A DNA stretch of 37,898 nucleotides from a virus. Each line of letters opens with the position of its first letter. The first letter of the stretch is position 1. The stretch spans positions 1 through 37,898 of IMG/VR virus record IMGVR_UViG_3300025646_000132; one strand, 5' to 3'. The translations under genes were made by a program, and so were the position numbers. The notes below the pieces were generated by a model. It had not been told where the DNA came from. It saw only the letters and a list, made by a program, of their open reading frames with translations, and searched no databases. Positions 1,013 through 37,053 of the stretch are shown piece by piece.

Positions 1013-4000
1013 CAACAATTAATTTTAGAGTAGCTAATGTACAGCCTTTTATAGGGCGAGAAGGTGTTATTATTCTTGGAAAAAATGGATTTGAATCAGT
1101 CTTAGGACAAGTAAAACCTTTAGTTACTAATGCAGCAGTTTTAGACTCTAATATAGTATTTACTGTTTCTAATTTACATTTACTTTATGATGATAACTTT
1201 AATTGCCATATCTTAGATGCTCGTAGTAACGCACAGTTAGTTGCGCTTAGTGATACTGTTCCTAATAATTTAGCTACATTCTCAGTAAACTCAAAAACTG
1301 CTTCAAGCACTTCAGGTAAGATTGCAGGTACTGTTGGACATCAAACTACTTTAGATACTATAACAGCTAATATTATTTCACATAATATTAGTGCAAATAC
1401 TATTAGTGTATCATTTAGTAATAACTCAGTAGCTACTTCTATTAAAAATAAACTTTTAGATGTTCCTTTCTATATTAATTTAAATCAAATAGTAGATAAA
1501 AGATTTTTATCATCTAATACTTTTTATATATCGGGAGATTTAAGACTTATATCTAATACTCATAACGTAACTAATTTAACAGGTAGTGCTAATTTATATT
1601 TAGGAACTACAGTGCCTCTTAAAGGACTTATCTCTACATATATTAACGGATCTATTGAAGAGACGAATGCTTTAGAATATTCTTATAATCCTGGTGATCA
1701 ATATATAACACATAATCTTTCTAATTCAGATTTGATTATAAAAACAGTAGTAGAAGATTATACAGTTCCACATATTGAAGACATAGACACTGTTTATATT
1801 TATGACAATCAACAGACAGTGCAGATAAATGCTATAAGCTATTCTAGTAGTTCTTCTATTTATAATGCTGCCTTAACTGCTTCAGATTTTTTTAAAGTTA
1901 AACTTACAGATAATATATCTGCTAATGTAGCTAGCGCTACATTAATTAATATTACAGAAGACTTAATTGCAGATATTAGCGCTGTAAACGTTTCAAGTAA
2001 TGTAGTATCAATAACTTATAATGAAACTGTATACCCTAATAAATTAAATCTTGTTAGTCAAGGTATTTACAGCATGGCACCTTTTGATTATGCTTTATTT
2101 AAAGATGTTGAGATTGTTGATGGTAAATTAACAGTACCTACTCTTGCGGGAGTATATGTGTTTAAAGTAGCCAGTGTTAACGAGTTAGGCAGAATAAGTA
2201 CGCCAGTAACAAAGTCTATCTCTTTAGAAGATTTACCTATGGGTCAAGTTACTAATCTTATTCTATCTGAAATTCTATTTAGAGATAGAACTAAAGGTGT
2301 TATGTCTAGGATTAGTGGTTCTTTTACACACATAGAAGGTAGGAACGTTCAAGAATACGATATTGCATATAGAATTAATCTTGTATCAGGTACAGAACCT
2401 CATCCTAGTGGAATGACTAATTTTAACTCTTTTAAAATAGATAAATCAGGAGTAGGCACTGATGGCTTAGTAAGATTTACTATTGATAATATTGATCTAG
2501 GTAGAGCTGGTAATACTTATGAAATTGAAGTAATGGTTACTCCTATAAACGGTATAAATACAGGTATATATAATATTAAAAAACTAGAACTAAGGGGTAA
2601 ATCTACTAGACCTCTTCCTGTAACTACTTTTGAAGTATATCAAACTGATAGTACTATTGTTTTTGAGGTTGATTATCCTGTAGATACTCAAAGTAATTTA
2701 AATGAATTAGATATTTTACATACAGAGATTAGATTACGATCACCTGTAACAGCTATTAATACTTTAGATCAAAGAGATTTTGCTTTTACCAATGGGGGCA
2801 CTCTTATTTTAATACCTCATCCTCTTACTAGAGCAGAAATATCTGCTGAAAGATTGGGAGAAGGTAGCTTTACTTTTACTGCTAAAACTGTAGATACTAG
2901 CGGTAATAAGTCTTCTGATACTTTAGCTAAAAATTTAAGTATTGACCTTCCTTCTACTATTGTTCCTATTGCTGCGTGGAATGAGGCAAATCCTAATTCT
3001 AATGTTATTGTAGGATTATTTAATTCTAACTACGCAACAAACAATTTTGTTAGTGTTACAGATTCAGATAATGGAGGATTTGTTTATGACGTAGATCCTG
3101 TTACTAGTGCAATAGTAAATAATTCTGTTGTTCCTTCTACTGTTGCTGAAGATGCTAATGCTTCTGCTACAGGCTTTGCTTGGAGTTCAACAGCTAATGG
3201 AGTGTTAGATTCTACTGACTTAATTATCACTACGAACTATTCTTCTTATATAACCCCAGTTAGAGATTTAGGAGAGGTAGTAAAAGGCTCTTTAGTAATA
3301 TCTAGTACTGTTGAGACACAACTAGCTAAAACCTGGTTAGAAATGTCTAATGATTTAATAGTAGGGGTAGCAGAACAATCTCCTAGTTCTAATGTACTAT
3401 TTGATGCAGATTTTGAAATTGGTAATATAGTGGGTTATAATAATTCTAATTTTAGCTTCAGTTTTAGTAATGTTCACGCTACTATAGTAGATAATTCTCC
3501 TTCTACAAGAGTTTTTGCTATTGTTAACCCTGGACAAGAAGTAGTCGGAGAACGTACTGCTAGAGAAGATATAAGTAACGTCTTTAGTTATGCTCTTATT
3601 GCCGGAGCTATTAATGCACATGCTATTGAAATATCTAATGTATATTATGCAAATGGAAGTGTAGTGGTAGGGGGTAATACTAGTGGCAGTATTGCGTTGG
3701 CTAACTTAACAAGTGCCGGAAGCTCTTATAGATTAGTTGACTTAGCTCAGTTTACAGATGATGAGGCTCAACAAGACTACAGTCCTGATCTTGATATTTC
3801 TAAAAATGTTTATGTACGTTTCTCTTCTGCAAATGTTTTTCTGGCTCCAGATGTAGGATCTTCTAAGCCTCATGGTAATGTAGATGAAGAACTATTTGAT
3901 GCAACTACATTAGAAGGTAACTGGACTCAACAATATTCAGGTATTAGAAGATTTAGATATTTTCAAGTTAAATTAGATATTAATATTGCCGACTATGGAG

Positions 4001-4299
4001 AGACAGCTAATGCTTACTTAGATCAATTTTATTATCAAGTATCAGCTCCTAGGAAAAACTTTACTACCACTGTTACTTCTACAGGTAATATATTAGGAAA
4101 TGTTTCTGTAGACTATAGTAGTACAGGTTTTTATAATATCCCTTCAGTTTTCTGTCAAGTTTTAAGTGATGGATCATTTTTAGCAAAAACGAATAATTTG
4201 ACAAATACTGGCTGTAATGTTAGAATAATTGATACTACTACAGGAAACGTTGTAAGCACTGAGGGCTTAGAAATTTTAATCTCTGCTACAGGAGCGTAA
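1009..4299 (+). CDS. Large tail fibre / receptor-binding protein (1096 aa)
   Basis: This is a 1096-residue protein rich in Ser, Thr, Asn, Val and Ile and almost free of Cys, typical of extended beta-structured phage fibres. Segments starting near residues 408 and 533 look like fibronectin type III-like modules (alternating strands, with P-x-x-V-T or P-V-T-T-F starts), as found in the distal part of gpJ-like proteins. The last 80 residues resemble the small beta domain that ends many fibres. It overlaps the tail-tip gene by 4 bases and probably attaches to it, so it could correspond to the C-terminal half of a gpJ split into two polypeptides. Host-range function is inferred from position and composition. 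Confidence 0.6.
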   Translation: MTTINFRVANVQPFIGREGVIILGKNGFESVLGQVKPLVTNAAVLDSNIVFTVSNLHLLYDDNFNCHILDARSNAQLVALSDTVPNNLATFSVNSKTASSTSGKIAGTVGHQTTLDTITANIISHNISANTISVSFSNNSVATSIKNKLLDVPFYINLNQIVDKRFLSSNTFYISGDLRLISNTHNVTNLTGSANLYLGTTVPLKGLISTYINGSIEETNALEYSYNPGDQYITHNLSNSDLIIKTVVEDYTVPHIEDIDTVYIYDNQQTVQINAISYSSSSSIYNAALTASDFFKVKLTDNISANVASATLINITEDLIADISAVNVSSNVVSITYNETVYPNKLNLVSQGIYSMAPFDYALFKDVEIVDGKLTVPTLAGVYVFKVASVNELGRISTPVTKSISLEDLPMGQVTNLILSEILFRDRTKGVMSRISGSFTHIEGRNVQEYDIAYRINLVSGTEPHPSGMTNFNSFKIDKSGVGTDGLVRFTIDNIDLGRAGNTYEIEVMVTPINGINTGIYNIKKLELRGKSTRPLPVTTFEVYQTDSTIVFEVDYPVDTQSNLNELDILHTEIRLRSPVTAINTLDQRDFAFTNGGTLILIPHPLTRAEISAERLGEGSFTFTAKTVDTSGNKSSDTLAKNLSIDLPSTIVPIAAWNEANPNSNVIVGLFNSNYATNNFVSVTDSDNGGFVYDVDPVTSAIVNNSVVPSTVAEDANASATGFAWSSTANGVLDSTDLIITTNYSSYITPVRDLGEVVKGSLVISSTVETQLAKTWLEMSNDLIVGVAEQSPSSNVLFDADFEIGNIVGYNNSNFSFSFSNVHATIVDNSPSTRVFAIVNPGQEVVGERTAREDISNVFSYALIAGAINAHAIEISNVYYANGSVVVGGNTSGSIALANLTSAGSSYRLVDLAQFTDDEAQQDYSPDLDISKNVYVRFSSANVFLAPDVGSSKPHGNVDEELFDATTLEGNWTQQYSGIRRFRYFQVKLDINIADYGETANAYLDQFYYQVSAPRKNFTTTVTSTGNILGNVSVDYSSTGFYNIPSVFCQVLSDGSFLAKTNNLTNTGCNVRIIDTTTGNVVSTEGLEILISATGA

Positions 4300-15990: not shown

Positions 15991-16993
15991 AGTTGAAAAT
16001 CTTATTTAAGTTACCTTGGAAGGTGAACGCACCTACATGGTTAAGTTTAGTATTTGGGTCTACCCAAATTTTACCGCCTAGCGCTTGCCAACGGCGACAG
16101 AAAGTATAGTCTTCAGATAAGTATCTATTATCTCTAGGATCATGAATAGTATCAAATAGAGAATAGCAGTACTTATTAAATCGAGGATCAATTGAACTGT
16201 CATTTCTGTAGTGAAGATCTGGATAAGCCTCAAACATAGTTTTCACTACTTCTTTTTTAATCATAAAGAAGCCAGTAGAGGCGTCTAGAACTTCTACTGC
16301 ACCATCTTGAGAGTTAACACGTTTAGTTTCTTTATCTGCAAATTTTAAATTAATTGCATATTCAGCGCCAAAAGGAGCGGGTTCTGATTCTTTACGTTCT
16401 ACAGCACGAGCAACGCCGTTCCAATCAACAGTCTTTTTAGGATACGCAGCAGCAACAACATTTTTATTCATTGCTAACATACGAAGAACTGAATCTGGTT
16501 CAAATTCAATATCAGCATCAATAAACATTAAGTGAGTTGAATTAGGATCGTCCATGAACATAGCTGTTAAGATATTTCTGGCACGAGGAATTAAACTTTC
16601 ATTTCGTAAGGTTGTAATACGAAAATTGATACCATTCTGAATTAGTGCTTGTGATAGCTTGAACATGCTTAAAAAGTACTGATCTGTAATCATGCCACCA
16701 TAACAAGGAGTAGCAAAAAATACATTCATTTTTTTAAGTGCTTCACCATCAAGTTTTACTTGATTAGGTCCTACCTGGTTGAAAAAGGCTTTTCCATCAG
16801 GAGGAATACTTACTGAGTTAATAGGGCCTGTTAGTGTTTTTCTTGTGCCAAGAGCAACTACGTCCTTAGTAGCTTCTGACTCTTCTAAAGAAGGTGCTGA
16901 CATTTTTACAGGTTCAGGCGTAGAAACTTCTGTGGAGGCTTTCGCCTCCACATTAGAACCACCTGCATAATCAGATAGTTTTTTCTTAGTCAT
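15980..16993 (-). CDS. Glycosyltransferase of GT-A type in the replication operon
   Basis: 337 residues: a disordered 60-residue N-terminus rich in Ser, Glu and Pro, then a GT-A-like domain with F-F-A-T-P-C-Y-G-G at 92-100, R-N-E-S-L-I-P-R-A-R-N at 130-140, and the metal-binding D159-A-D161. Related GT2-like proteins occur in many phages. Its start overlaps the SSB stop by one base and its stop overlaps the SbcD-like gene, so it is made with replication proteins, away from the sugar cassette. The acceptor is unknown; modified DNA bases or a virion protein are possible. Confidence 0.7.
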   Translation of the reverse strand: MTKKKLSDYAGGSNVEAKASTEVSTPEPVKMSAPSLEESEATKDVVALGTRKTLTGPINSVSIPPDGKAFFNQVGPNQVKLDGEALKKMNVFFATPCYGGMITDQYFLSMFKLSQALIQNGINFRITTLRNESLIPRARNILTAMFMDDPNSTHLMFIDADIEFEPDSVLRMLAMNKNVVAAAYPKKTVDWNGVARAVERKESEPAPFGAEYAINLKFADKETKRVNSQDGAVEVLDASTGFFMIKKEVVKTMFEAYPDLHYRNDSSIDPRFNKYCYSLFDTIHDPRDNRYLSEDYTFCRRWQALGGKIWVDPNTKLNHVGAFTFQGNLNKIFNYGP

Positions 16994-17661
16994 TAAATAT
17001 CGTCCATAGTTTCATCATCATCTACTCGTAGATCCCCTACAACTGTTTCAGAAAAGTAGGAAGTGTTACGAAGCAGAAACTCTTTTTGTTCTTCGTAAGA
17101 AGGACGCTTAAAGATCTTTTCAAGATCAAATAATTCAAGTTGACGTTCAGCTTCTGTCAACGGGACAGTACGACGAGAAGGAATGCAAGTATACTTAACA
17201 TTCATTACTTGAGGTCCTGTTTTTTCTTTCTTAATAGTAATATCATACCCCTCTTCATAATCAGAAGGATTTCCATATTCAGGATTCATTGCATAATCAA
17301 GAATTTGACGATAAATAGTTGGTTTTAAATCAAATAGTTTAATCTGTCCGTCTTTGCGATCAATCGCATTACAAACATAAGAGAAAACAGGCTTCTCTGA
17401 GTAGATAGCGGGATCAATTTCTCTAACAGGATCAATTCCAGCTGTATCTTTAAAAGTTTCATTCTCACGAACAAAACTCAAGCACTCAACAGGAGTGCGT
17501 TTACCTTCATTATTTGTTAGCCAATACACATAACGAGGCATAACATTGCCAATTAGGCGAAGTCTATTTTCGCCATCTCCGAGCTTAATACGCTCAATAT
17601 TACGATTACCGTTGGTATTTCCCGCAGGTTGTACTTTAAGATTAGTCCATTCAAGTGCCAT
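16993..17661 (-). CDS. Single-stranded DNA-binding protein
   Basis: 222 residues ending in an acidic tail (V-D-D-D-E-T-M-D-D-I), the usual protein-interaction tail of phage SSBs such as T4 gp32 and T7 gp2.5. The N-terminal R-L-R-L-I-G-N-V-M and P-R-Y-V-Y-W segments fit an OB-fold of the T4-like gp32 type. The gene lies between a UvsW-like helicase region and SbcCD-like genes, the right setting for a replication/recombination SSB. The call rests on the acidic tail, length and context. Confidence 0.72.
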   Translation of the reverse strand: MALEWTNLKVQPAGNTNGNRNIERIKLGDGENRLRLIGNVMPRYVYWLTNNEGKRTPVECLSFVRENETFKDTAGIDPVREIDPAIYSEKPVFSYVCNAIDRKDGQIKLFDLKPTIYRQILDYAMNPEYGNPSDYEEGYDITIKKEKTGPQVMNVKYTCIPSRRTVPLTEAERQLELFDLEKIFKRPSYEEQKEFLLRNTSYFSETVVGDLRVDDDETMDDI

Positions 17662-19938: not shown

Positions 19939-20071
19939 GTCTAATACTAGAGGTTGCTTTTAAACTTTTACAGTTCTTACAGTATACTAGCTTAACTACA
20001 TAACGAGCGTCTTCAACATAGATAACATGTTGAGTACTTTCAATTATAGTATTTGCACAGCAACTAGTCAT
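19928..20071 (-). CDS. Zinc-ribbon-like small protein (47 aa)
   Basis: A 47-residue reading frame exactly fills the gap between its neighbours: ATG at 20071 overlaps the upstream stop by 8 bases, and its stop overlaps the next start by 11. It has two pairs of cysteines, C4-C5 near the start and Y-C-K-N-C about 26 residues later, suggesting a small zinc-binding knuckle. Overlapping ends and Cys spacing support a real gene; its function is unknown. Confidence 0.55.
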   Translation of the reverse strand: MTSCCANTIIESTQHVIYVEDARYVVKLVYCKNCKSLKATSSIRHEK

Positions 20072-20687
20072 AGCCTCTCTCTTCTAACCAAGATAATATA
20101 TCTGGGTCATTCCAACTCTCTTCACTTAACCAGTTTTTATAATCTGTTTTGTCTAAACTAATATGATTGGGATGAAAATGAGTTCTACGATCCTCTCGTA
20201 CAGTAAGAGTATCTACAAATTTTTTAACTGCATGAATGTTATGACATTCTATTAATATATCTACAACATCTTTAGGAAGTAGTAGGTTAAGAGAACTTAG
20301 TATTTTTTTAATACCTAGTTCTATATTTATAATATCTTCTTCATAGCGTAATTCATAGATAGAAAGATGTTCCTTTTCTACTCTATTTTTAACAGCTCTA
20401 TCAGTCCTAACTAGAAAACACATAAACTCTTTAGCTGTTTTAGTTCTAATTGACGGATGTTGGAAGTTATGCTCTGTCCAGCCCCGTTTTCGCATAAAAG
20501 AGGCTGTACAGTTTCTTATATCTCTATAAGAATAAATGTTTAAGTCAGAGTGAAATATAGGTATTCCTAACCAGTGTTCATGATGTTTTACTACATTATC
20601 TTTTACTAATCCTTCTACTATTAGCTGTCGAACAATGTTATAGATAACAGTAGACCCACTTCTGTATAATCCGTTTACATAAATCAT
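20064..20687 (-). CDS. Sulfotransferase-like protein (207 aa)
   Basis: The N-terminus G-L-Y-R9-S-G-S-T13 matches the 5'-phosphosulfate-binding loop of sulfotransferases, and Y-R55-D-I-R-N-C-T-A-S63 matches the 3'-phosphate-binding segment (R and S nine and one before and after R-D). Such enzymes transfer sulfate from PAPS to a carbohydrate or other hydroxyl. The gene overlaps the polA stop by four bases and so is translated within the replication operon, an unexpected place. The acceptor is unknown; a P-loop kinase is a less likely alternative because no Walker A G-K-S/T is present. Confidence 0.65.
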   Translation of the reverse strand: MIYVNGLYRSGSTVIYNIVRQLIVEGLVKDNVVKHHEHWLGIPIFHSDLNIYSYRDIRNCTASFMRKRGWTEHNFQHPSIRTKTAKEFMCFLVRTDRAVKNRVEKEHLSIYELRYEEDIINIELGIKKILSSLNLLLPKDVVDILIECHNIHAVKKFVDTLTVREDRRTHFHPNHISLDKTDYKNWLSEESWNDPDILSWLEERGYD

Positions 20688-27578: not shown

Positions 27579-27865
27579 TATTCTTCTCCTTCTTCAAACA
27601 ACTCTAGCTGTTTATCGTACACTCCAGTACGTTTTAAATATGTTTTTGCAAGTATTTCACCTGCTTGACTTAATAAGTGAGCTGCCATGTCTACGCTGTC
27701 TGGTCTAAGCGCTAGTCCTTTTTTAGTAGGAAACCAGTGCCCAGTATCTCCATCACACATATATTCACGTATGTGAACATATTCTTGACCTCTAAACTCA
27801 TTTATAGTAATTTTGATAGCTTTATCTTCTGAGATAAAACATACAAATCCTAAATCAATTTCCAT
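27578..27865 (-). CDS. PC4/p15-like single-strand-binding protein (95 aa)
   Basis: Residues about 16-60 follow the PC4 (transcriptional coactivator p15) pattern: I-T-I-N-E-F-R-G-Q-E-Y-V-H-I-R-E-Y, a turn, then P-T-K-K-G-L-A-L-R-P-D and a helix. PC4-like proteins bind single-stranded DNA and melted duplex as dimers; bacterial and phage members are known. It overlaps the glycosyltransferase gene upstream by 11 bases and the Myb-like gene downstream by one. A role in late transcription or DNA packaging/replication is inferred. Confidence 0.7.
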   Translation of the reverse strand: MEIDLGFVCFISEDKAIKITINEFRGQEYVHIREYMCDGDTGHWFPTKKGLALRPDSVDMAAHLLSQAGEILAKTYLKRTGVYDKQLELFEEGEE

Positions 27866-28976
27866 GTACTCTTTTTATAGTTGGATACTCATGCACTGCT
27901 TTTAGTACATCATAATATTGTTTCCCAACTGTTTCCCATGTTTTAATTTTATTATTTCTAGGAATAGCTGATTTACGAGAATCATAGAGCATACGCATTT
28001 TTTGCATTAAATCTTGGGTATCTGGTTCAATAACCCATGTATGAGATCCCATTAAATTAAAGCTATCTCCTGGTTTACCTGCAAATATATTATTAATATC
28101 TACTAGTTTTTGAGAAGATCTAATTTTGTAATCTTCAACAAATTCATCAGTACAACCACGACCTGTAACAAGAGGTATTGTCCCACAAGCAATTGCTTCT
28201 TGAATGGGCATACCAAATCCTTCTCCACGATAAGGATGTACTAATACATGAACACTTCTATATAAATCTGCCATTTCTTGTTCAGTATAAGCATCGTCAA
28301 TATAAGTAATTTTACCTATATCATTCTTATACTGAAGCTCTATTAATTGATTTTGAAGATTTGTTTTACCGTATATTTGAGGAGTATCTTTTACAATAAG
28401 CTCTACATTATCAGTAGATTTGAATGTGTTAGCCCAGGCTTGAAGTAAAATATCAAAACCTTTTCTATACTGATCACACCCTACAAATAAGAAAGTATAA
28501 CGATCACGTTTTTTAGCTGCACGATCAATATAAAAGATTTCAGGGTTATAACCGATCGGAAGTGCAAAAAGACGTTCAGGATTAATACCACCTTCATGAA
28601 ACACTGCAGCAGTCCAACGAGTAAAAGTAATTAGTGAATCAGCAAAAGTTTCAAACTTATACTGCCATTCAAAGGGAACTTTAGAAAATTCCCACGGTTG
28701 AATATATACTACCTTAGTTTCATTAGATGCAGGCCACCGCCAAATTGGAGGGTAGGTATGTCTAATTTGAATGTCTGGGTGTGTAGTATCATTTGAAGTA
28801 GGCTTTAAAGCCTCTAAGCTTGCTAGAGTTTTTTTATCAAGTTTAGCTTCTGGTTTATAACTATCTAAAGGTGATATTACAACTTTTGCATACTTTGAAA
28901 GTTCTAAAACTAGATACCTATTAACAATAGATAGTGAATGATTATCGTAAAATTTACCTACATACTCAATTAACAT
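27855..28976 (-). CDS. Glycosyltransferase family 4 (GT-B) (373 aa)
   Basis: 373 residues from the ATG at 28976, which has GGAGG five bases ahead; an ATG four codons upstream includes that site. The GT-B signature is visible: F-L-F-V-G-C-D-Q-Y-R-K-G at the start of the second domain and E-G-F-G-M-P-I-Q-E-A-I-A-C-G, the E-x7-E sugar-nucleotide motif of GT4. It transfers a sugar from a nucleotide donor to an unknown acceptor. Last gene of the sugar cassette, coupled to the gene before it by adjacent stop and start. Confidence 0.85.
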   Translation of the reverse strand: MLIEYVGKFYDNHSLSIVNRYLVLELSKYAKVVISPLDSYKPEAKLDKKTLASLEALKPTSNDTTHPDIQIRHTYPPIWRWPASNETKVVYIQPWEFSKVPFEWQYKFETFADSLITFTRWTAAVFHEGGINPERLFALPIGYNPEIFYIDRAAKKRDRYTFLFVGCDQYRKGFDILLQAWANTFKSTDNVELIVKDTPQIYGKTNLQNQLIELQYKNDIGKITYIDDAYTEQEMADLYRSVHVLVHPYRGEGFGMPIQEAIACGTIPLVTGRGCTDEFVEDYKIRSSQKLVDINNIFAGKPGDSFNLMGSHTWVIEPDTQDLMQKMRMLYDSRKSAIPRNNKIKTWETVGKQYYDVLKAVHEYPTIKRVHGN

Positions 28977-28977
28977 A

Positions 28978-29796
28978 TTATCCTCCATACATTAGTTTGA
29001 CTTGATTCTTACAATAGTTTAGCAGCTCGTCTTCTCGTAATTTAGTAAGAGATTCCCATTGAGGCCCCATATTACTAGTTTTAAAATTTTTAAGCTGTGT
29101 CCAATTATTTTCATCTACTCGTGCTTGAATATCATAGAATGGGTCTTTTTTAGACTCAATACTATGTCCAAAATTGTTTACTTTTAAATCAAGCTCTTCA
29201 GGAGGACGACAAAAACTCCAATGTAAAATAGCTAGAGGAGATTGAATGCGTCGTTGATTATTTGTCCAACGGCAATAGTTATAAGTATTACGTTTGTCAG
29301 TTACAAAACCTTGAACTTCATTATTTTGTAAGTTTCCATCATTTTTAGTGATAACTAAAATTTCACCATTGGATAGTCGTTTATAAGGTAGAATCCAGTA
29401 AAACATATGGTCTAAATCATAAGACTCTACTAGAGGGCAATAACGTGTAAAATAGTCATGAGCGTTCACAAGCTCTTCATCAGCATCAAAACTAAATATC
29501 CAGTCGTGAGAACAATATTCTTTTAAGTAATTACGTTCGTGATTGTCATTTTCAATTGGAACTGCACTACGATGAAAATTGCCTTCTACAACTTCTATTT
29601 TGCCGTCTCCATCTATTTGAGAAAGCTCTTTCCAGAGAGCTTCTTCATCAAAAGAAAATTTGTTTCCGCTCCAAGAAATTCTATCTTGATCTAAGCCAAG
29701 TATGATTTCATCCACATACTCATAATAGGTGCGAATGGAATTCGCTAGATATGAGGCATCATAGGAAATTAAACTAATAACACTTTTTTTACGCAT
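28978..29796 (-). CDS. Glycosyltransferase, GT2-like (272 aa)
   Basis: 272 residues from the ATG at 29796 (an in-frame GTG at 29802 is possible). The N-terminus K-S-V-I-S-L-I-S-Y-D-A starts a Rossmann-like fold and W-I-F-S-F-D-A-D-E-E contains the D-x-D-E metal motif of GT-A enzymes. Several Trp and Tyr in the second half are typical for acceptor binding. It overlaps the GT-methyltransferase gene and lies next to the GT4 gene, so all three act on the same glycan or substrate, which is unknown. Confidence 0.7.
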   Translation of the reverse strand: MRKKSVISLISYDASYLANSIRTYYEYVDEIILGLDQDRISWSGNKFSFDEEALWKELSQIDGDGKIEVVEGNFHRSAVPIENDNHERNYLKEYCSHDWIFSFDADEELVNAHDYFTRYCPLVESYDLDHMFYWILPYKRLSNGEILVITKNDGNLQNNEVQGFVTDKRNTYNYCRWTNNQRRIQSPLAILHWSFCRPPEELDLKVNNFGHSIESKKDPFYDIQARVDENNWTQLKNFKTSNMGPQWESLTKLREDELLNYCKNQVKLMYGG

Positions 29797-31225
29797 TTTC
29801 ACCTGCCTTTTCTATTATCATAAGTCCGTTATTATCTTTAGTTTCGTAAACTATTTTCCAGTTGTTATTAGCCTCTAAAAACTCATCAATTGCTAACCTT
29901 ATTCCACCTTGACTACTTAGTTTATCTCTAGTAGGATGATTAGGATCCATGTCAGGATACCCCTCTCCTACAGCTCCAAAAGTTTCTATATCATGGAATG
30001 CTATATACTTGTTAACTTTAGGAGCGTGTAATCTTAATTCTTCTTTTAATTGTTCATACACATGCCAGGTATCAATAAATAATAAATCTGTTTCTTCAAT
30101 TTCTATATCTAGTACATTAGCACCTATATAATTGGCATTAATTCCTATATTTTTTCTAGCCCCATCAATTAAAAATTTAAGTCTTTCTACTGCTTCTGCA
30201 AGATGAGGCTCTGGATTACTATATTGATAGTCATAAGAAATAAACTTATCAGTATCAGATAGTAAAAATGCTACAGTACTGTTTCCAGTTCTAGCACCCA
30301 TTTCTGTTACGCTTTTGCACTTACTGGCATAGTCTTTTAAGACTGGTAGGTGTTTATAAATATCTGATTCAGTATTACAAGCATATTCATATATATCTTC
30401 TAGTAGCTTTTTATCTACAATAAATTTTTTTGGCTCGGGAGCAATTAATTCATTGCCTGTTTCAACTTCAATATTTAAAGTTTGCATTTCCTCTGAACCG
30501 TTCCATTTTTCCATGAAGATAGAACGATTAATAGACCATTTTTCGTTTAGAGAAGGGTTCTGAGCAATTAGTCTTTTGTTGTCTTTTCCCTCGAAGTGAA
30601 GGAGCGGAATACTTGTTTGATAAATTTTGATACCAGCGCGACGGGCAGTAAGACACCAATCCACATCACGATAGTAAGTCCAATAATAGGAGGGATCAAA
30701 ATTGCCAACAGTAGCACGAGCAGAAGAACGAATATATATACCGCCCATTGTAACCCAGGAAACTTCTCTAAGTTTGTCGTACTGCCCTTCATCGACTTCC
30801 AGTTCTTTATTTGTTCTTCCATCAAAGAGGTTAAGTCCTCCTCCGAAATGTACTGCTTCACCATTCTTTTCAAATCTCCCGCCAGCATGTTGTATTATGT
30901 ACTGGTTCTTATCATTTTTTTGTGGATAGAGAAGCTTCATTCCAAAAATACCAGCTTCTGGATGGGCATCTACTATTGCTAGTAATTCATCATACCAGCT
31001 ATTATCTTTGTCTTCTGGCAGAGGAAGCATATCTGCATGAAGAATAATTACATCTCTATCTTTGTGCTTATTCCATAAATATTGGTAAGCTAGATCACTT
31101 CCTATACGCCCTACATCTTGCCAAAACTCATAGTCTAGTTTCCATCCTAGAGCTGATTTTAACTCTTGTATTTCTTGTTCAAACAGATAGGGAGTTATAA
31201 TAATAGGGTTATTTATATTTTTCAT
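29789..31225 (-). CDS. Glycosyltransferase-methyltransferase fusion (478 aa)
   Basis: Two domains in one polypeptide. Residues 1-240 look like a GT2 enzyme: I-I-L-H-A-D-M-L-P, a G-G-x-Y-I-R-S-S loop and Y-R-D-V-D-W-C-L-T-A-R-R-A-G. Residues 280-478 look like a class I SAM methyltransferase of the Methyltransf_24 type: V-T-E-M-G-A-R-T-G-N-S and D-L-L-F-I-D-T-W-H. A single protein that adds and methylates a sugar would suit glycan capping. It overlaps both neighbours. Confidence 0.75.
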   Translation of the reverse strand: MKNINNPIIITPYLFEQEIQELKSALGWKLDYEFWQDVGRIGSDLAYQYLWNKHKDRDVIILHADMLPLPEDKDNSWYDELLAIVDAHPEAGIFGMKLLYPQKNDKNQYIIQHAGGRFEKNGEAVHFGGGLNLFDGRTNKELEVDEGQYDKLREVSWVTMGGIYIRSSARATVGNFDPSYYWTYYRDVDWCLTARRAGIKIYQTSIPLLHFEGKDNKRLIAQNPSLNEKWSINRSIFMEKWNGSEEMQTLNIEVETGNELIAPEPKKFIVDKKLLEDIYEYACNTESDIYKHLPVLKDYASKCKSVTEMGARTGNSTVAFLLSDTDKFISYDYQYSNPEPHLAEAVERLKFLIDGARKNIGINANYIGANVLDIEIEETDLLFIDTWHVYEQLKEELRLHAPKVNKYIAFHDIETFGAVGEGYPDMDPNHPTRDKLSSQGGIRLAIDEFLEANNNWKIVYETKDNNGLMIIEKAGENA

Positions 31226-32213
31226 TTAACCAACTTTCAAATACATCTAAAATATCTTTTGATACTACTGTTTTAGTACAAGCCCATCCTGATTCGGTAT
31301 AAGGACATTTTCTAGGCCAAAAACCTAACTTTGCAAAAGGCCCTTCTTGTCCAGAAAAAGATTCTTTATCTTTATTAGCATAAAACTTTGTACCTAGACA
31401 TTTTGTCTCTTTTACTTTACAGTGGTTTTCAGGTCTATGTTCTACGTTTAAATGAGTGCCTTTAGTAGAATAGTACTTAGGCGTATCTAAGGTAGTAGGA
31501 AATATAGAAGGAATTGAGATTGTGTCTACATTTAAAGCAGCAGCAGCATGATGAAGAGATCCTATTGGCCCTAAAAATAGGTTATGTATATTTAATACAC
31601 ATAAAGCCTGATACATAGTATAGTTATTTATCTCTACTCCAAAAAAATTTATCTCAGCTCTTATATTTTTTGCTATAAGTATTTCTTGAATACCATTTAT
31701 AACTTCTATTCGTGTTTTTTCACTTTGTAATTTTCTATTCCAGTCTAAAGGCCCAGACATACCAATTCTTAATATATCATCTTTTATCTTATCGCTCTCT
31801 ACAAATAACTCTAAGTTGCCATCATCTAAAATATCTTCTGGTAGATAGTCTTTTATGTGATAATTATTACTTTTATTGTTTCCAAAGTCAGTCCACCACT
31901 TAGTTTGTGGCACAAAAAGATCTGGCTTTCTTTTTGAAAGCTCAGTGTCTGAAAGTACTATATTAGTTACATTACCTTGACCATCTGTAACTAAGTATCC
32001 TACGGCATCTAACCACGGTTGTTTAGAATATACCTCTAAAGCTTCTTGCATTCCCGCTCTACCATCGTTAGTTGTAAGATTAAAATTTTCTCTAATAGTA
32101 AAAGCTATTTTCCAGTCAGGGTTATTTTCTTTAAATCTTCTAGCAGAGTTGATACCAAATAACGTATCTCCAAAAGCCATTGAGTTAAAAAATAGTGCAT
32201 ATTTTTGTGTCAT
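31209..32213 (-). CDS. Heptosyltransferase-like (GT9, GT-B) protein (334 aa)
   Basis: The pattern F-F-N-S-M-A-F-G-D-T-L-F at the start and L-G-P-I-G-S-L-H-H-A-A-A-A-L-N-V near residue 220 resembles GT9 heptosyltransferases (first loop and donor-binding G-x-x-G/H-x-A-A-A). A C-terminal extension carries four Cys (two in K-C-L-G / H-C, two in K-C-P-Y / W-A-C), possibly a metal site. Its start overlaps the epimerase stop by four bases. The donor could be a heptose or another nucleotide sugar. Confidence 0.6.
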   Translation of the reverse strand: MTQKYALFFNSMAFGDTLFGINSARRFKENNPDWKIAFTIRENFNLTTNDGRAGMQEALEVYSKQPWLDAVGYLVTDGQGNVTNIVLSDTELSKRKPDLFVPQTKWWTDFGNNKSNNYHIKDYLPEDILDDGNLELFVESDKIKDDILRIGMSGPLDWNRKLQSEKTRIEVINGIQEILIAKNIRAEINFFGVEINNYTMYQALCVLNIHNLFLGPIGSLHHAAAALNVDTISIPSIFPTTLDTPKYYSTKGTHLNVEHRPENHCKVKETKCLGTKFYANKDKESFSGQEGPFAKLGFWPRKCPYTESGWACTKTVVSKDILDVFESWLNEKYK

Positions 32214-33241
32214 TGGTTAAACAGCTTGTCTTTCCAAGTTTTAGGAGTGTGCTCATTAACAATTTCTAGCTCAAGATGATAGTTAAAGTCACGTTCCGGT
32301 TGCGTTTTCATCCAAGAAACTGTGTCTCTAATAGTTTCTTCCATTGAAGTATCTGCATGATAGTTTAGCTGTATTTCAGCCTTTGTAGTAGAAACCCAAG
32401 CATTTTTAACTTCACGAGGTCGTTCAGGGACAAAGTTTATTTGAGCAGCTTTGTTAAAATGAGCTGCAACACGATGTGCTAGTTCTAAAACACTAGTCTC
32501 TGTTCCGTGGCTCGGGCCAATATTAAATACTTCTTTAGAGTTAATTTGCTCACGTTTTTCGTATATTGTAATAAAAGCGTCTACACAATCTCGAACATGT
32601 GAGAATGAACGTTTTTGTGATCCGTCACCATAAATATATATAGGCTTGTCCTTAGAAATTAGGTTGGCAAATATGCTCATTACGTTTCTAAAAGGATCAC
32701 TATAACACTGGTGAGGGCCACAAACATTATGCGGAACCATGTGAAATACTTTTATGCCGTGTATATCGCTCATAAGATTAAGATGCTGCTCAGCGTGTAG
32801 TTTAGCTAATCCATAAGGATCTACAGGTTGAGGAGTCATAGCTTCGTCAAAAGGAGGTTCAATAGCTCCATAGCGCGCCATTGAAGTAGTGTTGATAAAG
32901 TAACGTACACCCGCTGCGATAGCGGCGCTGACTACTGAAGCTGTGCCTGCATATATATTTTCTACAATCGTTTTAGGAGCGAATACACTTAACCCTTCGT
33001 GTGCTAGCGCAGCACAGTGAATTACTAGTTTAGGCTCAAATTCTCTAAATATTGCAGAAAGAGTTTCATTGTCTAAAATGTCTACATTTCTATAGTGAAA
33101 ATCTACATGATCTGGCATATTTGAAGCATAACCGCCAATAAGATTATCAATTCCTACTACTGCCCAGCCTAGCTCTAAAAACTTAACACAAAGATGACTA
33201 CCTATAAGCCCAGCGCTTCCAGTAATTACCACTGATTCCAT
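32210..33241 (-). CDS. NAD-dependent nucleotide-sugar epimerase/dehydratase
   Basis: 343 residues from the ATG at 33241; an in-frame TTG at 33253 is also possible. An extended short-chain dehydrogenase: V-V-I-T-G-S-A-G-L-I-G (G8, G11, G14) binds NAD, T-S-M-A-R-Y-G and the following D-P-Y-G-L-A-K supply the Ser, Tyr-x3-Lys catalytic residues. It matches the GalE/WcaG family and probably makes the activated sugar used by neighbouring transferases. Specific substrate cannot be read. Confidence 0.88.
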   Translation of the reverse strand: MESVVITGSAGLIGSHLCVKFLELGWAVVGIDNLIGGYASNMPDHVDFHYRNVDILDNETLSAIFREFEPKLVIHCAALAHEGLSVFAPKTIVENIYAGTASVVSAAIAAGVRYFINTTSMARYGAIEPPFDEAMTPQPVDPYGLAKLHAEQHLNLMSDIHGIKVFHMVPHNVCGPHQCYSDPFRNVMSIFANLISKDKPIYIYGDGSQKRSFSHVRDCVDAFITIYEKREQINSKEVFNIGPSHGTETSVLELAHRVAAHFNKAAQINFVPERPREVKNAWVSTTKAEIQLNYHADTSMEETIRDTVSWMKTQPERDFNYHLELEIVNEHTPKTWKDKLFNQ

Positions 33242-33999
33242 ACTTCGTTCCAATCAATTATAGGAGTTACACAACCCTCTTGTAAGTGAGTACTAGTGCC
33301 TGGTAGGGGGCACACCGCTACAGACTGTCTAAAAGCTTTCCAGGTCCAAGAATCGTCTGAAAATAGTCCTGCTTGTAAGATAGAAAACTTAAAAGGTAAA
33401 AAGCTTTTACCTTTTGCGGCTAGAGTTAGTGTAGCGCTACACACAGTTTTAAGATGACAATCTGGTCCTATCAACACTTCTGCGTGCCTATCTCTATCAA
33501 AGTATCTATCTGGGTAGTCATAGGGTAAATAAAAACCTTCATATCCGGCAGAGAATACGTTTTTCATAATACGTATTGCTCCGGGAGTATGAAGGTAGTC
33601 GTCTTCACAAATATAGATAAGCTCTTCAGGATACTGCTCACAAAGTTGTATAAGTCGCTCCATAAGAGGGATACAAGTATTAATAGTTACAGGATGGTAC
33701 TGCGGATAAGGATGTGTACCATAAGGAGGAACCTCTGTGCGAGGAGGGATGTCTTCAATTTCAAGTTTTGTAGGAATGGCGCAAGTTTCCTGCATCCACT
33801 CTTTAGTTTCTTCAGTAACTTTATCTGCTAGAACAACGATTCTATCGGCCCAGCCTTCTAGATCTTGTTGTAAAGACAACCAACACTTACGAAAGATTTC
33901 ATCTTTTTTTCTACCGTTCCAGCGAGGTCTATCTTGTGAGCCATCAGAGATACTGCCGGGAGATTTATTAGCTTCAGAAGCTCTATATAAGATTATCAA
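33226..33999 (-). CDS. Glycosyltransferase-like protein (257 aa)
   Basis: 257 residues. The frame starts with TTG at 33999 in a TTGA overlap with the upstream stop, and no ATG occurs for the next 60 residues. The segment L-I-Y-I-C-E-D-D-Y-L-H-T near residues 130-140 resembles the E-D-D metal motif of GT-A proteins, and I-V-V-L-A-D-K lies earlier in the fold. A sugar-transfer role is inferred from this motif and from its place between acyltransferase and epimerase genes. Confidence 0.55.
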   Translation of the reverse strand: MIILYRASEANKSPGSISDGSQDRPRWNGRKKDEIFRKCWLSLQQDLEGWADRIVVLADKVTEETKEWMQETCAIPTKLEIEDIPPRTEVPPYGTHPYPQYHPVTINTCIPLMERLIQLCEQYPEELIYICEDDYLHTPGAIRIMKNVFSAGYEGFYLPYDYPDRYFDRDRHAEVLIGPDCHLKTVCSATLTLAAKGKSFLPFKFSILQAGLFSDDSWTWKAFRQSVAVCPLPGTSTHLQEGCVTPIIDWNEVWNQW

Positions 34000-34580
34000 A
34001 GTGCTTTCTTTCTTGACTGATTATAAAATTCATCTATAATACTTATTATATAAGTAGAAATAGGTTCTGAGCCATCTTTAATATACTGTTTAATTTCTAA
34101 CATTTCTATTTCAGAAAAACTCTCTTTAAACTCTTTAGAAGAAGTAATTCCTTTAGAAACTGCAGGATTACCAAATACTTTTGAAAAAGGCTTTGCATCT
34201 TTTATTAAAGGGGTAAGAGTTCCAATAGTAGCCCAACTACCCACAGTGCTATAAGGACTAATAGTTGCTCCAGCTTCTAAAACAGAATTGCTTAACACAC
34301 AAGCATGATGCCCTACAAAATTAGAGCCTTCTAATATATTATTATTTCCTATAATAGCATCACTTTGAATTGTAACACCTGCACCAATATAGTTATTTGA
34401 GCCTATTAAGGTATTTTCTCTATATCCTGAAGCTGCATGTACTACACAACCTGCTAAAATAGTGTTATTCTTACCTATGGATACCCCGTACCTATCATCT
34501 TCTATAATAAATACTACACTATCATGAATATAGTTAGAACTATCAATATCTTGTAATTCTTTGGCTGTTATTATTTTCAT
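33996..34580 (-). CDS. Hexapeptide-repeat acyltransferase (194 aa)
   Basis: 194 residues whose middle part repeats the I/L/V-G-x-x-x-x hexapeptide pattern (I-G-S-N-N-Y-I-G-A-G-V-T-I, then I-I-G-N-N-N-I-L, then F-V-G-H-H-A) and so should fold as a left-handed beta helix. The family includes O-acetyltransferases acting on sugars; the final K-V-F-G-N-P-A is typical of the C-terminal edge. First gene of the sugar cassette, located just past the tmRNA terminator; GAGG lies near the ATG. Confidence 0.8.
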   Translation of the reverse strand: MKIITAKELQDIDSSNYIHDSVVFIIEDDRYGVSIGKNNTILAGCVVHAASGYRENTLIGSNNYIGAGVTIQSDAIIGNNNILEGSNFVGHHACVLSNSVLEAGATISPYSTVGSWATIGTLTPLIKDAKPFSKVFGNPAVSKGITSSKEFKESFSEIEMLEIKQYIKDGSEPISTYIISIIDEFYNQSRKKAL

Positions 34581-34591
34581 TGTGCCTCTAT

Positions 34592-34625
34592 ATAAAAAGA
34601 TGCTGTGCTAACCGTGGCACAGCGC
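34592..34625 (-). terminator. Intrinsic terminator of the tmRNA gene
   Basis: GCTGTGC / GCACAGC (34602-34608, 34617-34623) forms a 7-bp stem with an 8-base loop, followed on the minus strand by ATCTTTTT. It ends the tmRNA transcript just before the acyltransferase gene. Confidence 0.75.
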
Positions 34626-34706
34626 GCACTTATTAGGTAGTGACCCCGATAAACTGTTAAGGAGCGAGCCCGTTCTGTTTCTAGGTGGAACTCATACCCA
34701 CTGCGG

Positions 34707-34751
34707 TTACGCTGCTAGAGCGAACTCAGATGGTGCAAAATTATCGTTTGC
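34707..34751 (-). other. tmRNA tag reading frame: ANDNFAPSEFALAA
   Basis: From the resume codon GCA at 34751 fourteen codons lead to TAA at 34709-34707, encoding ANDNFAPSEFALAA. The A-N-D-N start matches known alphaproteobacterial tags (for example A-A-N-D-N-F-A in Caulobacter), and the final A-L-A-A is a ClpXP-type degron. With the Ala carried by the tmRNA itself the full tag would begin AANDN. Confidence 0.9.
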
Positions 34752-34830
34752 ATTTAGTTTAATCGACCGATACGAGGTCATCCGGTAAACTCCACTCTAT
34801 CTTCACACCTGTCGATCCTATTTCGACCCC

Positions 34831-34901
34831 ATCAAAAACATACTCCAAGTATCAGCCCTTCCAACCCTGCTGATATATGTTTGGGTACACGAGTATGTTT
34901 A
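34831..34901 (-). other. tmRNA intervening sequence with extended stem
   Basis: The 71-base spacer between acceptor and coding pieces starts with AAACATACTC and ends with GAGTATGTTT, exact complements that would extend the acceptor stem; ATCAGC and GCTGAT inside it form a second hairpin. It should be removed during maturation by host tRNA-processing nucleases. Confidence 0.8.
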
Positions 34902-34969
34902 TGGTGGAGTCGTCGGGTACCGCCCCCGAGTCCAGAATGTGTCCACGTCGCTTCAACGTTTACAAATTA

Positions 34970-34998
34970 AATTTAACATAAAAAATACCACTTAGCAA
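34970..34998 (-). promoter_or_regulatory. Candidate tmRNA promoter
   Basis: On the minus strand TTGCTA (34998-34993), 17 bases, TAAATT (34975-34970). Transcription would begin near 34963, just before the acceptor piece. It resembles the sites at 27186 and 35580. Confidence 0.5.
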
Positions 34999-35000
34999 CT

Positions 35001-35020
35001 AAAAATTAAATTTAATTTTT
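35001..35020. repeat. 20-base A+T palindrome
   Basis: AAAAATTAAATTTAATTTTT is a perfect palindrome spanning the bS21 stop codon; its core AAATTAAATTTAA recurs at about 34965-34977, next to the tmRNA promoter. It may be a weak terminator, a protein site or simply A+T-rich DNA. Confidence 0.4.
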
Positions 35021-35278
35021 ACTCTTTGCTGGTTTTGTTACTTTTTTGTTAAAAGCCTGTTTTTGTTCTAGTTTATCAATTAGGGCGCGTCTTTTTGCTT
35101 CTGCTTTTCTGTATCTAGCTGTCCCAGCTTTTTTGTCTTCTCTAGCTTGTTCACTCTTTGATACATAAAAACTTTTTCTTTTTGTATCGGTATAGAATCC
35201 CTCAGCATTTAGTTTTCGCATCATAATTCTATATGCTTTAGATATATCATTATTATATCTTTTAACACTTATTTTCAT
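35012..35278 (-). CDS. rpsU: Ribosomal protein bS21 homologue (88 aa)
   Basis: 88 residues, very basic. It follows the bS21 pattern through its length: V-K-R-Y-N-N-D-I-S-K-A-Y-R, R-K-L-N-A-E-G-F, K-R-K-S-F-Y-V-S-K-S-E-Q-A-R, then a Lys/Arg-rich helix (K-A-E-A-K-R-R-A-L). bS21 binds the 30S platform near the anti-Shine-Dalgarno and helps start translation. Phage copies are known from marine phages. The start overlaps the preceding stop by four bases, and the tmRNA gene follows about 50 bases on. Confidence 0.8.
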   Translation of the reverse strand: MKISVKRYNNDISKAYRIMMRKLNAEGFYTDTKRKSFYVSKSEQAREDKKAGTARYRKAEAKRRALIDKLEQKQAFNKKVTKPAKSKN

Positions 35279-35517
35279 TTAGTACCTTTCATATATTTTT
35301 TTACCCACTCTAATACTATTCCTGGAGTGTGTTTACCTTCTAACTTAGATAACACACCTCCCTGTTTAAATATAGCAAATGCGGGGGTTAGTATTGTTTT
35401 AGGCAGTTTAGAAGCGTCTACAAGTTCTACTTCTATGCCGTTTTGATTAAGCATGTATGCTTCTTTTAATACATACAACTTATTAGCTTCTGTGTAATAA
35501 GCTTTTATGTTTTTCAA
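35275..35517 (-). CDS. Thioredoxin-fold-like small protein without CxxC (80 aa)
   Basis: 80 residues starting with TTG at 35517, with AGGAG six bases ahead. The C-terminal half, T-P-A-F-A-I-F-K-Q-G-G-V then L-E-G-K-H-T-P-G-I-V-L-E-W-V, follows the thioredoxin pattern after the cis-Pro, but the region where the CxxC would be (T-E-A-N-K at 9-13) has no Cys. The protein is therefore not an ordinary reductase; it may be a binding module. It is coupled to the bS21 gene by a 4-base overlap, suggesting a shared function. Confidence 0.5.
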   Translation of the reverse strand: MKNIKAYYTEANKLYVLKEAYMLNQNGIEVELVDASKLPKTILTPAFAIFKQGGVLSKLEGKHTPGIVLEWVKKYMKGTK

Positions 35518-35879: not shown

Positions 35880-36215
35880 ATGAACCTTTATCAAAAAGAT
35901 CTTTTTGATATTAAACTTCTTCTTAATACTAATCAGTATGAGTCTCTTGATGAGGCTAAGAAGAGCATTAAACCTATTTTCCTAAAACTAAACAATCCAA
36001 CTTTTTATAAAAAACATGTATATTCTAAGCCTACAGAACAGTTTGGATTTGCTGATTCTAAAGATTACTCAAACAATATTCTAGTTAAATTCACATCAGA
36101 GTGTATCAAAATTATTAACGAAAGTCAAGACCTATCTGAAATGCTTAAAAAGCTTCAAGTAGAATATTCTTGGACTATTGTGAATAATCTCAATCATTGG
36201 ATGAAAAATGCCTGA
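35880..36215 (+). CDS. Hypothetical protein (111 aa)
   Basis: 111 residues, basic and apparently helical, rich in Lys, Asn, Ser and Leu, no Cys, no membrane segment. GGAGA lies upstream at a long spacing. The stop overlaps the Fpg/Nei gene by eight bases, so the two are coupled. No function is recognised. Confidence 0.55.
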   Translation: MNLYQKDLFDIKLLLNTNQYESLDEAKKSIKPIFLKLNNPTFYKKHVYSKPTEQFGFADSKDYSNNILVKFTSECIKIINESQDLSEMLKKLQVEYSWTIVNNLNHWMKNA

Positions 36216-37053
36216 AGGTCCAGAAGTAACCCGCGTAGCTAATCAACTTAATTCTGTTGTTAAAAATGCACTACTAGACTCTATTACTATTTTGTCAGGT
36301 AGGTACACTAAAAAAGCACCTGATGGTTACTTCAATCTTGAGAGCGCCCTACAGCGGGGCGCTCTTTTGATTAAAGAAGTTCGCAATAAAGGAAAATTTA
36401 TTTGGTGGGAACTTGAAGGTGAGCGCTTTATTTTTTCTACCCTTGGTATGAGTGGGCGTTATGCCCTATCTCAAACCACCCATTCCAGAATTCAGTTTGA
36501 TATAACTAAAGTATATAGTAAATACACAGAATCGCTGCCTGTTTTTTATGAAGACATTAGAAATTTCGGAACAATTAAGATAGTTAATGACCGTAATATC
36601 TTAAATAAAAAATTGGACTCTATCGGTCCAGATATGTTAAATAATCCTTGTAGTGTTTGTGAATTTTTAAAAATTGCCCGTAAAAATAATAATAAATCTA
36701 TTGTTAAGTTTTTAATGGAGCAACGATATATAAGTGGTGTTGGCAACATTTATAAAAGTGAAAGTTTATTTTTAGCTCGTATTTCACCGCTTAACTTGGT
36801 TAGTGACCTTTCAGACGACGATCTGACAAGGTTACATGGCTGTATAATTAAAGTATTAAGTGAGTCTTATAGAACTGGAGGTTCTACGATTCAAACTTAT
36901 AAAGATGTGTATGGAAATTCAGGTAATTACACGAAAGAAGCATCTAAACTAATGGTATACAATCAGAAAACTGATTTGTATGGCAATCCAGTAGAAAGGA
37001 TTACTCTTGACGATGGAAGGACTACTTTTTTCTCTCCTACTATCCAGTTTTAG
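36208..37053 (+). CDS. Fpg/Nei-type DNA glycosylase, zinc-finger cysteines lost
   Basis: 281 residues. The mature N-terminus is P2-E3-G-P-E-V, the catalytic motif of Fpg/Nei; K63 (N-K-G-K-F) and L-G-M-S-G-R-Y are in place, as is the H2TH segment with G-V-G-N-I-Y-K-S-E. In the C-terminal finger (about 250-281) all four zinc Cys are absent, but R271 in D-G-R-T-T-F-F-S-P keeps the DNA-contacting Arg, as in 'zincless finger' relatives (NEIL1, mimivirus Nei1, plant Fpg). It should remove oxidised bases. It overlaps both neighbours. Confidence 0.88.
   Translation: MPEGPEVTRVANQLNSVVKNALLDSITILSGRYTKKAPDGYFNLESALQRGALLIKEVRNKGKFIWWELEGERFIFSTLGMSGRYALSQTTHSRIQFDITKVYSKYTESLPVFYEDIRNFGTIKIVNDRNILNKKLDSIGPDMLNNPCSVCEFLKIARKNNNKSIVKFLMEQRYISGVGNIYKSESLFLARISPLNLVSDLSDDDLTRLHGCIIKVLSESYRTGGSTIQTYKDVYGNSGNYTKEASKLMVYNQKTDLYGNPVERITLDDGRTTFFSPTIQF

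Follow-up and report, generated by a model that had tools for sequence, protein, structure and literature searches.

Almost every bacterium has its own tmRNA, which raises the question of why a phage would bring along another copy. Phage-encoded permuted tmRNAs are already in print. In the paper on the Methylophilales phage Melnitz, 18,146 genomes yielded 402 phages with a tmRNA (133 unique, 53 two-piece), with 50 of the 53 two-piece tmRNAs being marine or aquatic; according to the legend of its figure 5, phages share the three lineages of their hosts, Melnitz being the exception (PMC9004378). A tmRNA database paper of 2025 includes 79 phage sequences (PMC11915505), and phages of Bradyrhizobium elkanii are reported to have tmRNA genes, with no form given, in a preprint of the same year (PMC12632393). 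The tmRNA of Melnitz and its kin (PMC9004378) is phage-borne, permuted and alpha-type, with a complete acceptor stem including G3-U70 and an ALAA-ending tag (ANDNYVPVDYALAA), and the Melnitz-1 record also contains an S21 gene. The phages DSS3P8, vB_RpoS-V10, MD18, DSS3_MAL1 and RcXuper, whose hosts, where stated, are Ruegeria, Phaeobacter and Rhodobacter, likewise have a permuted tmRNA of the alpha type, which falls among the viral copies in the tree comparison described below. Only one of these five records has its tmRNA annotated; for vB_RpoS-V10, DSS3P8, RcXuper and MD18 (L269, L270, L272, L274) the permuted tmRNAs called by ARAGORN are unannotated in the public records.

Phage-encoded bS21 has been described separately, with five clades in 47 genomes and Bacteroidetes as predicted hosts (PMC9723584); these S21-family phage proteins are thought to enter host ribosomes and their genes are located among structural genes. 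The words "tmRNA" and "ssrA" are absent from the main text of that paper, as is "tmRNA" from the searched text of a paper on jumbo-cyanophage ribosomal proteins (PMC13157829), while a paper on huge phages names S21 and tmRNA as separate items (PMC7162821). In the open-access literature searched, which included PMC10504331 and PMC10931766, we found no report of a bS21-tmRNA gene pair or of a separate viral clade of permuted tmRNAs. The lineage of the tmRNA and its pairing with bS21 are therefore the parts worth following.

The window, the whole stretch of DNA analysed here, is a viral record with a length of 37,898 bases. ARAGORN predicts one tmRNA in it, labelled "Permuted", on the minus strand (c[34616,34996]) with the tag ANDNFAPSEFALAA. 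An Rfam search of the whole window matches alpha_tmRNA (RF01849) at 35014-34663 with 123.9 bits (E 1.5e-33) and tmRNA_permuted (RF04321) at 34964-34707 with 106 bits (E 6.8e-20), both scores being more than twice the gathering cut-offs of 50 and 47 bits. A sequence-only reading of the locus had proposed a circularly permuted two-piece tmRNA and named Rfam and ARAGORN scans as a check, and both programs bear it out. The window thus carries an intact circularly permuted alpha-type two-piece tmRNA, an identification that rests on both programs and on a comparison to 130 further copies from viruses. The gene order is acceptor piece, 71-nt spacer and coding piece (Table 1). The acceptor stem is formed by GGGGTCG (from 34830) and CGACTCC with seven pairs including G3-U70, followed by A73 and a CCA ending at 34902, which reproduces the coordinates, the stem, the alanine identity elements, the encoded CCA and the two predicted ends (34902 and 34830) of the earlier reading. 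Its degron-like tag end was recovered as well: the frame is open after the resume codon and has a hydrophobic, ALAA-type end before the stop TAA.

Table 1. Coordinates of the tmRNA locus and the flanking genes in the window
Feature	Position	Strand	Evidence or remark
80-aa gene overlapping the start of the bS21-like gene	35275..35517	minus	no family match
bS21-like gene, 88 aa, directly upstream of the tmRNA	35012..35278	minus	Pfam Ribosomal_S21 (borderline)
Permuted tmRNA gene	34616..34996 (ARAGORN); 34663-35014 (Rfam alpha_tmRNA)	minus	
P2 outer helix, GTAAAC with GTTTAC	34958..34963 with 34785..34790	minus	
Acceptor piece, tRNA-like 3' part: T arm, CGACTCC, A73, encoded CCA ending at 34902	34902..34942	minus	
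Spacer hairpin arms AAACATACTC and GAGTATGTTT, stacked on the acceptor stem	34891-34900 and 34836-34845	minus	
Intervening sequence, 71 nt	34831..34901	minus	removal expected
Coding-piece 5' end: GGGGTCG with G3-U70, then D-loop-like part	34803..34830	minus	
AGT filling three virus-typical alignment columns	34794..34796	minus	
Tag reading frame GCA...TAA, peptide ANDNFAPSEFALAA	34707..34751	minus	ARAGORN
Terminator-like hairpin, then T run	34602..34623	minus	
Hexapeptide-repeat transferase, downstream of the tmRNA	33996..34580	minus	Pfam Hexapep
257-aa gene of no known family	33226..33999	minus	downstream in the 6 relatives holding it whole

In Melnitz, a 141-kb myophage, roughly 10 kb separate the S21 gene and the tmRNA, and the spacer has 142 nt; in the window the bS21-like gene adjoins the tmRNA and the spacer has 71 nt. 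The Melnitz authors describe a glutamine riboswitch in the tmRNA gene (PMC9004378); none was found over 34580-35020 of the window, where only tmRNA models match at E up to 1, the remaining matches being lower-scoring, overlapping ones of the same clan, and a riboswitch of this kind is rejected. The five roseophages differ in size (146-150 kb), in carrying tags such as ANINNAPMEMAIAA and in having no S21 match in their records. Bacterial ssrA (RF01849/RF04321) shares the gene order, CCA, acceptor identity elements, resume codon and tag; the viral copies differ from it by a 3-nt insert, longer spacers and a C near the T arm where bacterial copies mostly have T, G or A.

How often permuted forms occur in phages was a question raised by the sequence-only reading. 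Besides the 53 unique two-piece tmRNAs of PMC9004378, at least 119 viral stretches carry the exact acceptor motif, with ARAGORN finding a whole permuted tmRNA in 70 of the 119 listed. For comparison, a tmRNA core was used that begins with the two tRNA-like pieces and extends through the 60 nt that follow the tag, with the spacer omitted and identical cores merged before counting. A first sample, based on the same exact acceptor motif together with similar phage records, gave 169 cores, and a second viral sample used a looser motif. The final 131 viral rows consist of the window, five relatives, 58 and 59 rows from the two IMG/VR samples, seven named phages and one contig of a metagenome-assembled genome (MAG), L198. 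Since every viral row was selected through a motif or through its resemblance to the window, viral tmRNAs outside this selection may show a different pattern. Class-wide hosts came from 142 genomes, 131 of them above cut-off, from which 107 copies were extracted; another 43 hosts were left when 45 host rows, drawn at random from those selected by motif, had been merged; according to their titles, 36 of them are Rhodobacterales, and one has the title Gammaproteobacteria. Rows for which ARAGORN gave no permuted tmRNA were dropped (49 of 119 viral and 14 of 120 genome loci, one of six relatives, namely the Rfam-positive L027, one of eight phage loci, 26 of 140 loci in L276-L415 and 42 of 104 new second-sample viral loci), as was an additional ARAGORN prediction for L423 whose spacer length was impossible. 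Four distinct rows of the MAG Water_Bin34, which has eight tmRNAs, were excluded from the 222- and 281-row trees.

The acceptor stem covaries among the viral copies. All seven pairs are present in 128 of the 131 distinct viral tmRNAs, and G3-U70, A73 and CCA in 129 each, counts that are partly selected for since ARAGORN favours copies with good stems. Pair 5 is T-A in 58, G-C in 45 and C-G in 23 of the 131 copies, and within the window and its five ARAGORN-parsed relatives the stem reads GGGGTCG/CGACTCC, GGGGCTG/CAGCTCC, GGGACCG/CGGTTCC or GGGGCCG/CGGCTCC, each fully paired. The spacers vary in both length and sequence, and their ends pair with each other: at least five end-to-end pairs are found in 121 of the 126 spacers from viruses that are 26 nt or longer, with a mean of 9.2 pairs against 2.4 in shuffles. 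This hairpin is not restricted to viruses, as host spacers also form one (58 of 74 tested; mean 6.6 against 4.0 in shuffles). The whole fold of the tRNA-like and spacer region is unexceptional (z -1.54). P2 looks rebuilt in some relatives, with GTAATC/GATTAC in L023 and L026; a duplex-energy test of cognate against non-cognate partners is weak, the non-cognate ones pairing equally well in 1367 of 3275 trials.

That the tmRNA is phage-encoded, as the earlier reading had it, agrees with the nature of the record and with two of its proteins. The DNA polymerase is about 38-40% identical to phage proteins, the best among the matches listed being those of Providencia phages PR1 and PSTCR5, and a 222-aa protein (16993-17661) is about 28-33% identical to phage proteins, several of which are annotated as D11 or ssDNA-binding. 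The phages matched by these two proteins are ones that we take to be T5-like. The tail protein at 1009-4299 has no match in 50,697 phage records at an E limit of 1e-5. Elsewhere in the window, a homologue of the formamidopyrimidine-DNA glycosylase Fpg (36208-37053, plus strand) lies above the Pfam cut-offs for its two main domains and aligns over its full length with TIGR00577 at a score below cut-off. Behind the tmRNA, consecutive sugar-related genes (27855-34580, minus strand) encode the hexapeptide transferase, an enzyme of the epimerase/GDP-mannose dehydratase type and a group 1 glycosyltransferase, and there are weak matches to glycosyltransferases and methyltransferases. Next to the gene for DNA polymerase, 20064-20687 (minus strand) has a weak Sulfotransfer_3 match (22.4 bits, cut-off 27).

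The gene directly upstream of the tmRNA encodes a divergent protein whose match to S21 is borderline. Pfam Ribosomal_S21 is barely passed by the window protein (27.9 bits, cut-off 27); in a six-frame search the window gene scores 23.2 bits, below 27, while five of the seven group members (the window and six relatives) are above cut-off. The NCBIfam model S21p (TIGR00030, cut-off 28.95) gives 24.0 bits for the window protein and 20.4 to 26.7 bits for those of the three relatives tested, a profile built from six of the proteins finds no PDB match at E 0.01, and the AlphaFold model is weak (pTM 0.34). For these reasons the protein is named only bS21-like. It has no match in 50,697 phage records at an E limit of 0.01.

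The position of the gene is the same in the six relatives with a tmRNA. These six are among 21 viral records that encode a protein related to the 222-aa protein; the permuted tmRNA is present in six of the 21. A search for S21 covered the window and 11 of the 21. It was positive in the window and in all six relatives with a tmRNA, where the hit is upstream, on the strand of the tmRNA and some 160 to 520 bases away from its modelled extent; it was negative in the other five searched, which are perhaps fragments and are also without tmRNA. The downstream 257-aa gene is matched in seven of the 21 records and is whole in six, exactly those with both the tmRNA and the bS21-like gene; in the seventh (G009) the contig end cuts inside the gene. 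As all six relatives with the whole region have both genes, the pair is fixed in the phage group of the window as far as visible. An ORF resembling, by eye, the 80-aa gene of the window lies upstream of the bS21-like gene in relatives. In one subgroup (L023, L024, L027 and L028) a conserved 55-aa ORF (MNTEKDKIINEAVEKLHNNPLKFAPY...) separates the bS21-like gene from the tmRNA. The hexapeptide transferase was not seen at the corresponding place in the relative G018 (L025).

A general link between tmRNA and bS21 in viruses is rejected. In the exact-motif sample, in which near-copies were kept, S21 was found in 17 of 31 tmRNA-bearing IMG/VR records of at least 20 kb, against none of 40 randomly drawn viral records that also reach 20 kb (the 40 among 80 listed); the Fisher p of 2.6e-8 is overstated because near-copies were not removed. 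A second, looser-motif sample gave S21 in one of 18 tmRNA-bearing records (from 30 listed records of at least 20 kb), and for this reason the pairing claim is limited to the phage group of the window. The tmRNA motif and S21 are 0.7-1.1 kb apart in G030, G034 and G048 and 6-11 kb apart in the other records positioned, the near-copy of the window (G031) aside; in Melnitz-1 and Sinorhizobium phage Phosso S21 is elsewhere in the genome.

The sequence-only reading had placed a promoter-like site and a terminator at the flanks of the tmRNA. The terminator-like hairpin is present at 34623-34602, with two such hairpins in the scanned region against a mean of 0.6 in shuffles. The promoter did not stand: between the stop of the bS21-like gene (35012) and the tmRNA there is no minus-strand sigma-70-like site, and the nearest one upstream (35278-35249) is found where the bS21-like gene begins. 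As the number of such sites in the scanned region is near chance (7 against 5.3 in shuffles) and none is located at the tmRNA, a promoter of its own is not supported.

Taken together, the RNA is very probably a working phage-encoded tmRNA of the permuted alphaproteobacterial two-piece type, for which the following mechanism is proposed. It would be transcribed most likely with the bS21-like gene ahead of it, ending at the terminator-like hairpin. Host tRNA-processing enzymes would excise the spacer hairpin of 71 nt to give an acceptor piece with its 3' CCA at 34902 and a coding piece with its 5' end at 34830, presumably held together via the acceptor stem and P2. Host AlaRS would charge the RNA through G3-U70 and A73. 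A search for SmpB that was positive in 10 of 14 well-known genomes gave no hit in 20 phage records, window included, so that host SmpB would have to serve in bringing the tmRNA onto stalled ribosomes. Nascent chains would then gain ANDNFAPSEFALAA and be directed to ClpXP-type proteases, and ribosomes would be kept free while host breakdown yields broken mRNAs. The tmRNA and the bS21-like protein may form a small unit for ribosome takeover.

The authors of the Melnitz study proposed, as an alternative, that such a tmRNA may serve amino-acid recycling (PMC9004378). A functional tmRNA that serves mainly to mark proteins for breakdown and not for rescue would also retain the degron-like end seen in the window tag. 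Tagging by tmRNA is restricted to chains on stalled ribosomes, however, which makes recycling a by-product, and as the main role we consider it improbable. Ribosome rescue by the phage-encoded tmRNA is the preferred reading.

The trees bear on where this tmRNA comes from. With 169 cores the host label requires two changes, against a shuffled mean of 54.4, and the best branch separates 97 hosts from 71 viral rows and one MAG contig (SH-aLRT 94). A DNA polymerase of phage type (PHROG 262, 1030 bits) is encoded on this misplaced contig (L198); the genome to which it belongs (MAG Water_Bin34, G093) has eight permuted tmRNAs. A careful tree of 222 rows, for which the class-wide hosts were added, again requires two changes, with a branch supported at 100/99 and Mesorhizobium phage Cp1R7A-A1 as the one misfit, and a quick tree of the 222 rows plus Bin34 requires one change when Bin34 is not counted. 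With 281 cores (131 viral, 150 bacterial) viruses and hosts separate with three label changes in an unrooted tree. Its branch with the fewest misplacements (three: the viral L147, the host L347 and L414) is unsupported at 14/0, and the next, with four (adding the host L413), has support of 99/90. L414, although part of a host genome, is itself phage-borne, with genes for terminase and major head nearby; it is a second permuted copy in that genome (G190; L414/L604). Without tag and tail, five changes are needed, whereas 30 shuffles need 93 on average and 84 at the lowest, while the tRNA-like part alone gives a less clean split (eight changes). In AU tests on 76 rows, a clade of the window with 25 Rhodobacterales hosts is rejected (p-AU 0.0002), though the hosts of the window may be of another order, and a clade of the five roseophages with Rhodobacterales hosts has p-AU 0.038; all phages on one side, with the Mesorhizobium phage left out, is unrejected (p 0.465).

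The viral copies also share sequence marks. The 3-nt insert after the 5' tRNA-like part of the coding piece, AGT at 34796-34794 in the window, is filled in 126 of 131 viral but 4 of 150 host copies, and alignment column 7 is C in 121 of 131 viral against 6 of 150 host copies. Spacers have a median of 86 nt in viruses against 25 nt in hosts (p 4e-29, on rows that are not independent), the class-wide hosts alone having a median of 32 nt. Judged by these alignments and trees, the window tmRNA belongs to a lineage that looks viral and not freshly host-derived. A host ssrA that was recently picked up, or left behind by imprecise prophage excision, and has no special role would draw on the presence of the same RNA type across Alphaproteobacteria (131 of 142 genomes above cut-off), on ssrA genes that can serve as prophage integration sites according to PMC9004378, and on L347, a copy that looks like a true host gene, with neighbours that by eye are cellular, but is placed with the viruses in the largest tree; a past capture from some other host order may also have occurred. 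Against this stand the AU results for the window (0.0002) and the five roseophages (0.038), the three label changes among 281 copies and the conservation of the tmRNA in place in all six relatives holding the region whole, and recent capture is quite unlikely.

Mycobacteriophage DS6A has an RNA without a tag for which a decoy role has been suggested, and a tRNA-like-only RNA resembling it is reported to inhibit tmRNA (PMC4131195, PMC11915505). That the viral RNA of the window is such a decoy, binding SmpB or stalled ribosomes so that rescue by the host is blocked, is highly unlikely, since a decoy would need no tag and the window copy retains an open tag, a stop and a degron-like end, with 124 of 131 viral tags ending in LAA, IAA, MAA or VAA (LAA in 102). 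Long or odd viral tags occur as well, such as ANDNALSNVTFVDFSAPVTAVNEDFALAA in L489 and L503, ANANFKPELFFDFEVLEAA and similar ones in L059, L086, L146, L040 and L075, and AVPRTN(L/F)IIA..ANYSLAA in L118 and L128.

The signature described here could flag viral tmRNA contigs that have been binned into bacterial genomes, as with L198 and the second copy in G190. It is conceivable, if somewhat short of probable, that the viruses of Alphaproteobacteria hold an old tmRNA lineage of their own, marked by the 3-nt insert and long self-pairing spacers, that has passed between unrelated phages without being taken anew from hosts, and that one T5-like group has joined it with the bS21-like gene in a module for translation start and rescue. 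Such a two-part module, if true, would re-tune both translation start and the rescue of stuck ribosomes from one transcription unit. A virus-specific lineage with its own signature and a fixed place beside a ribosomal-protein-like gene would make the question of why a phage carries a second tmRNA testable.
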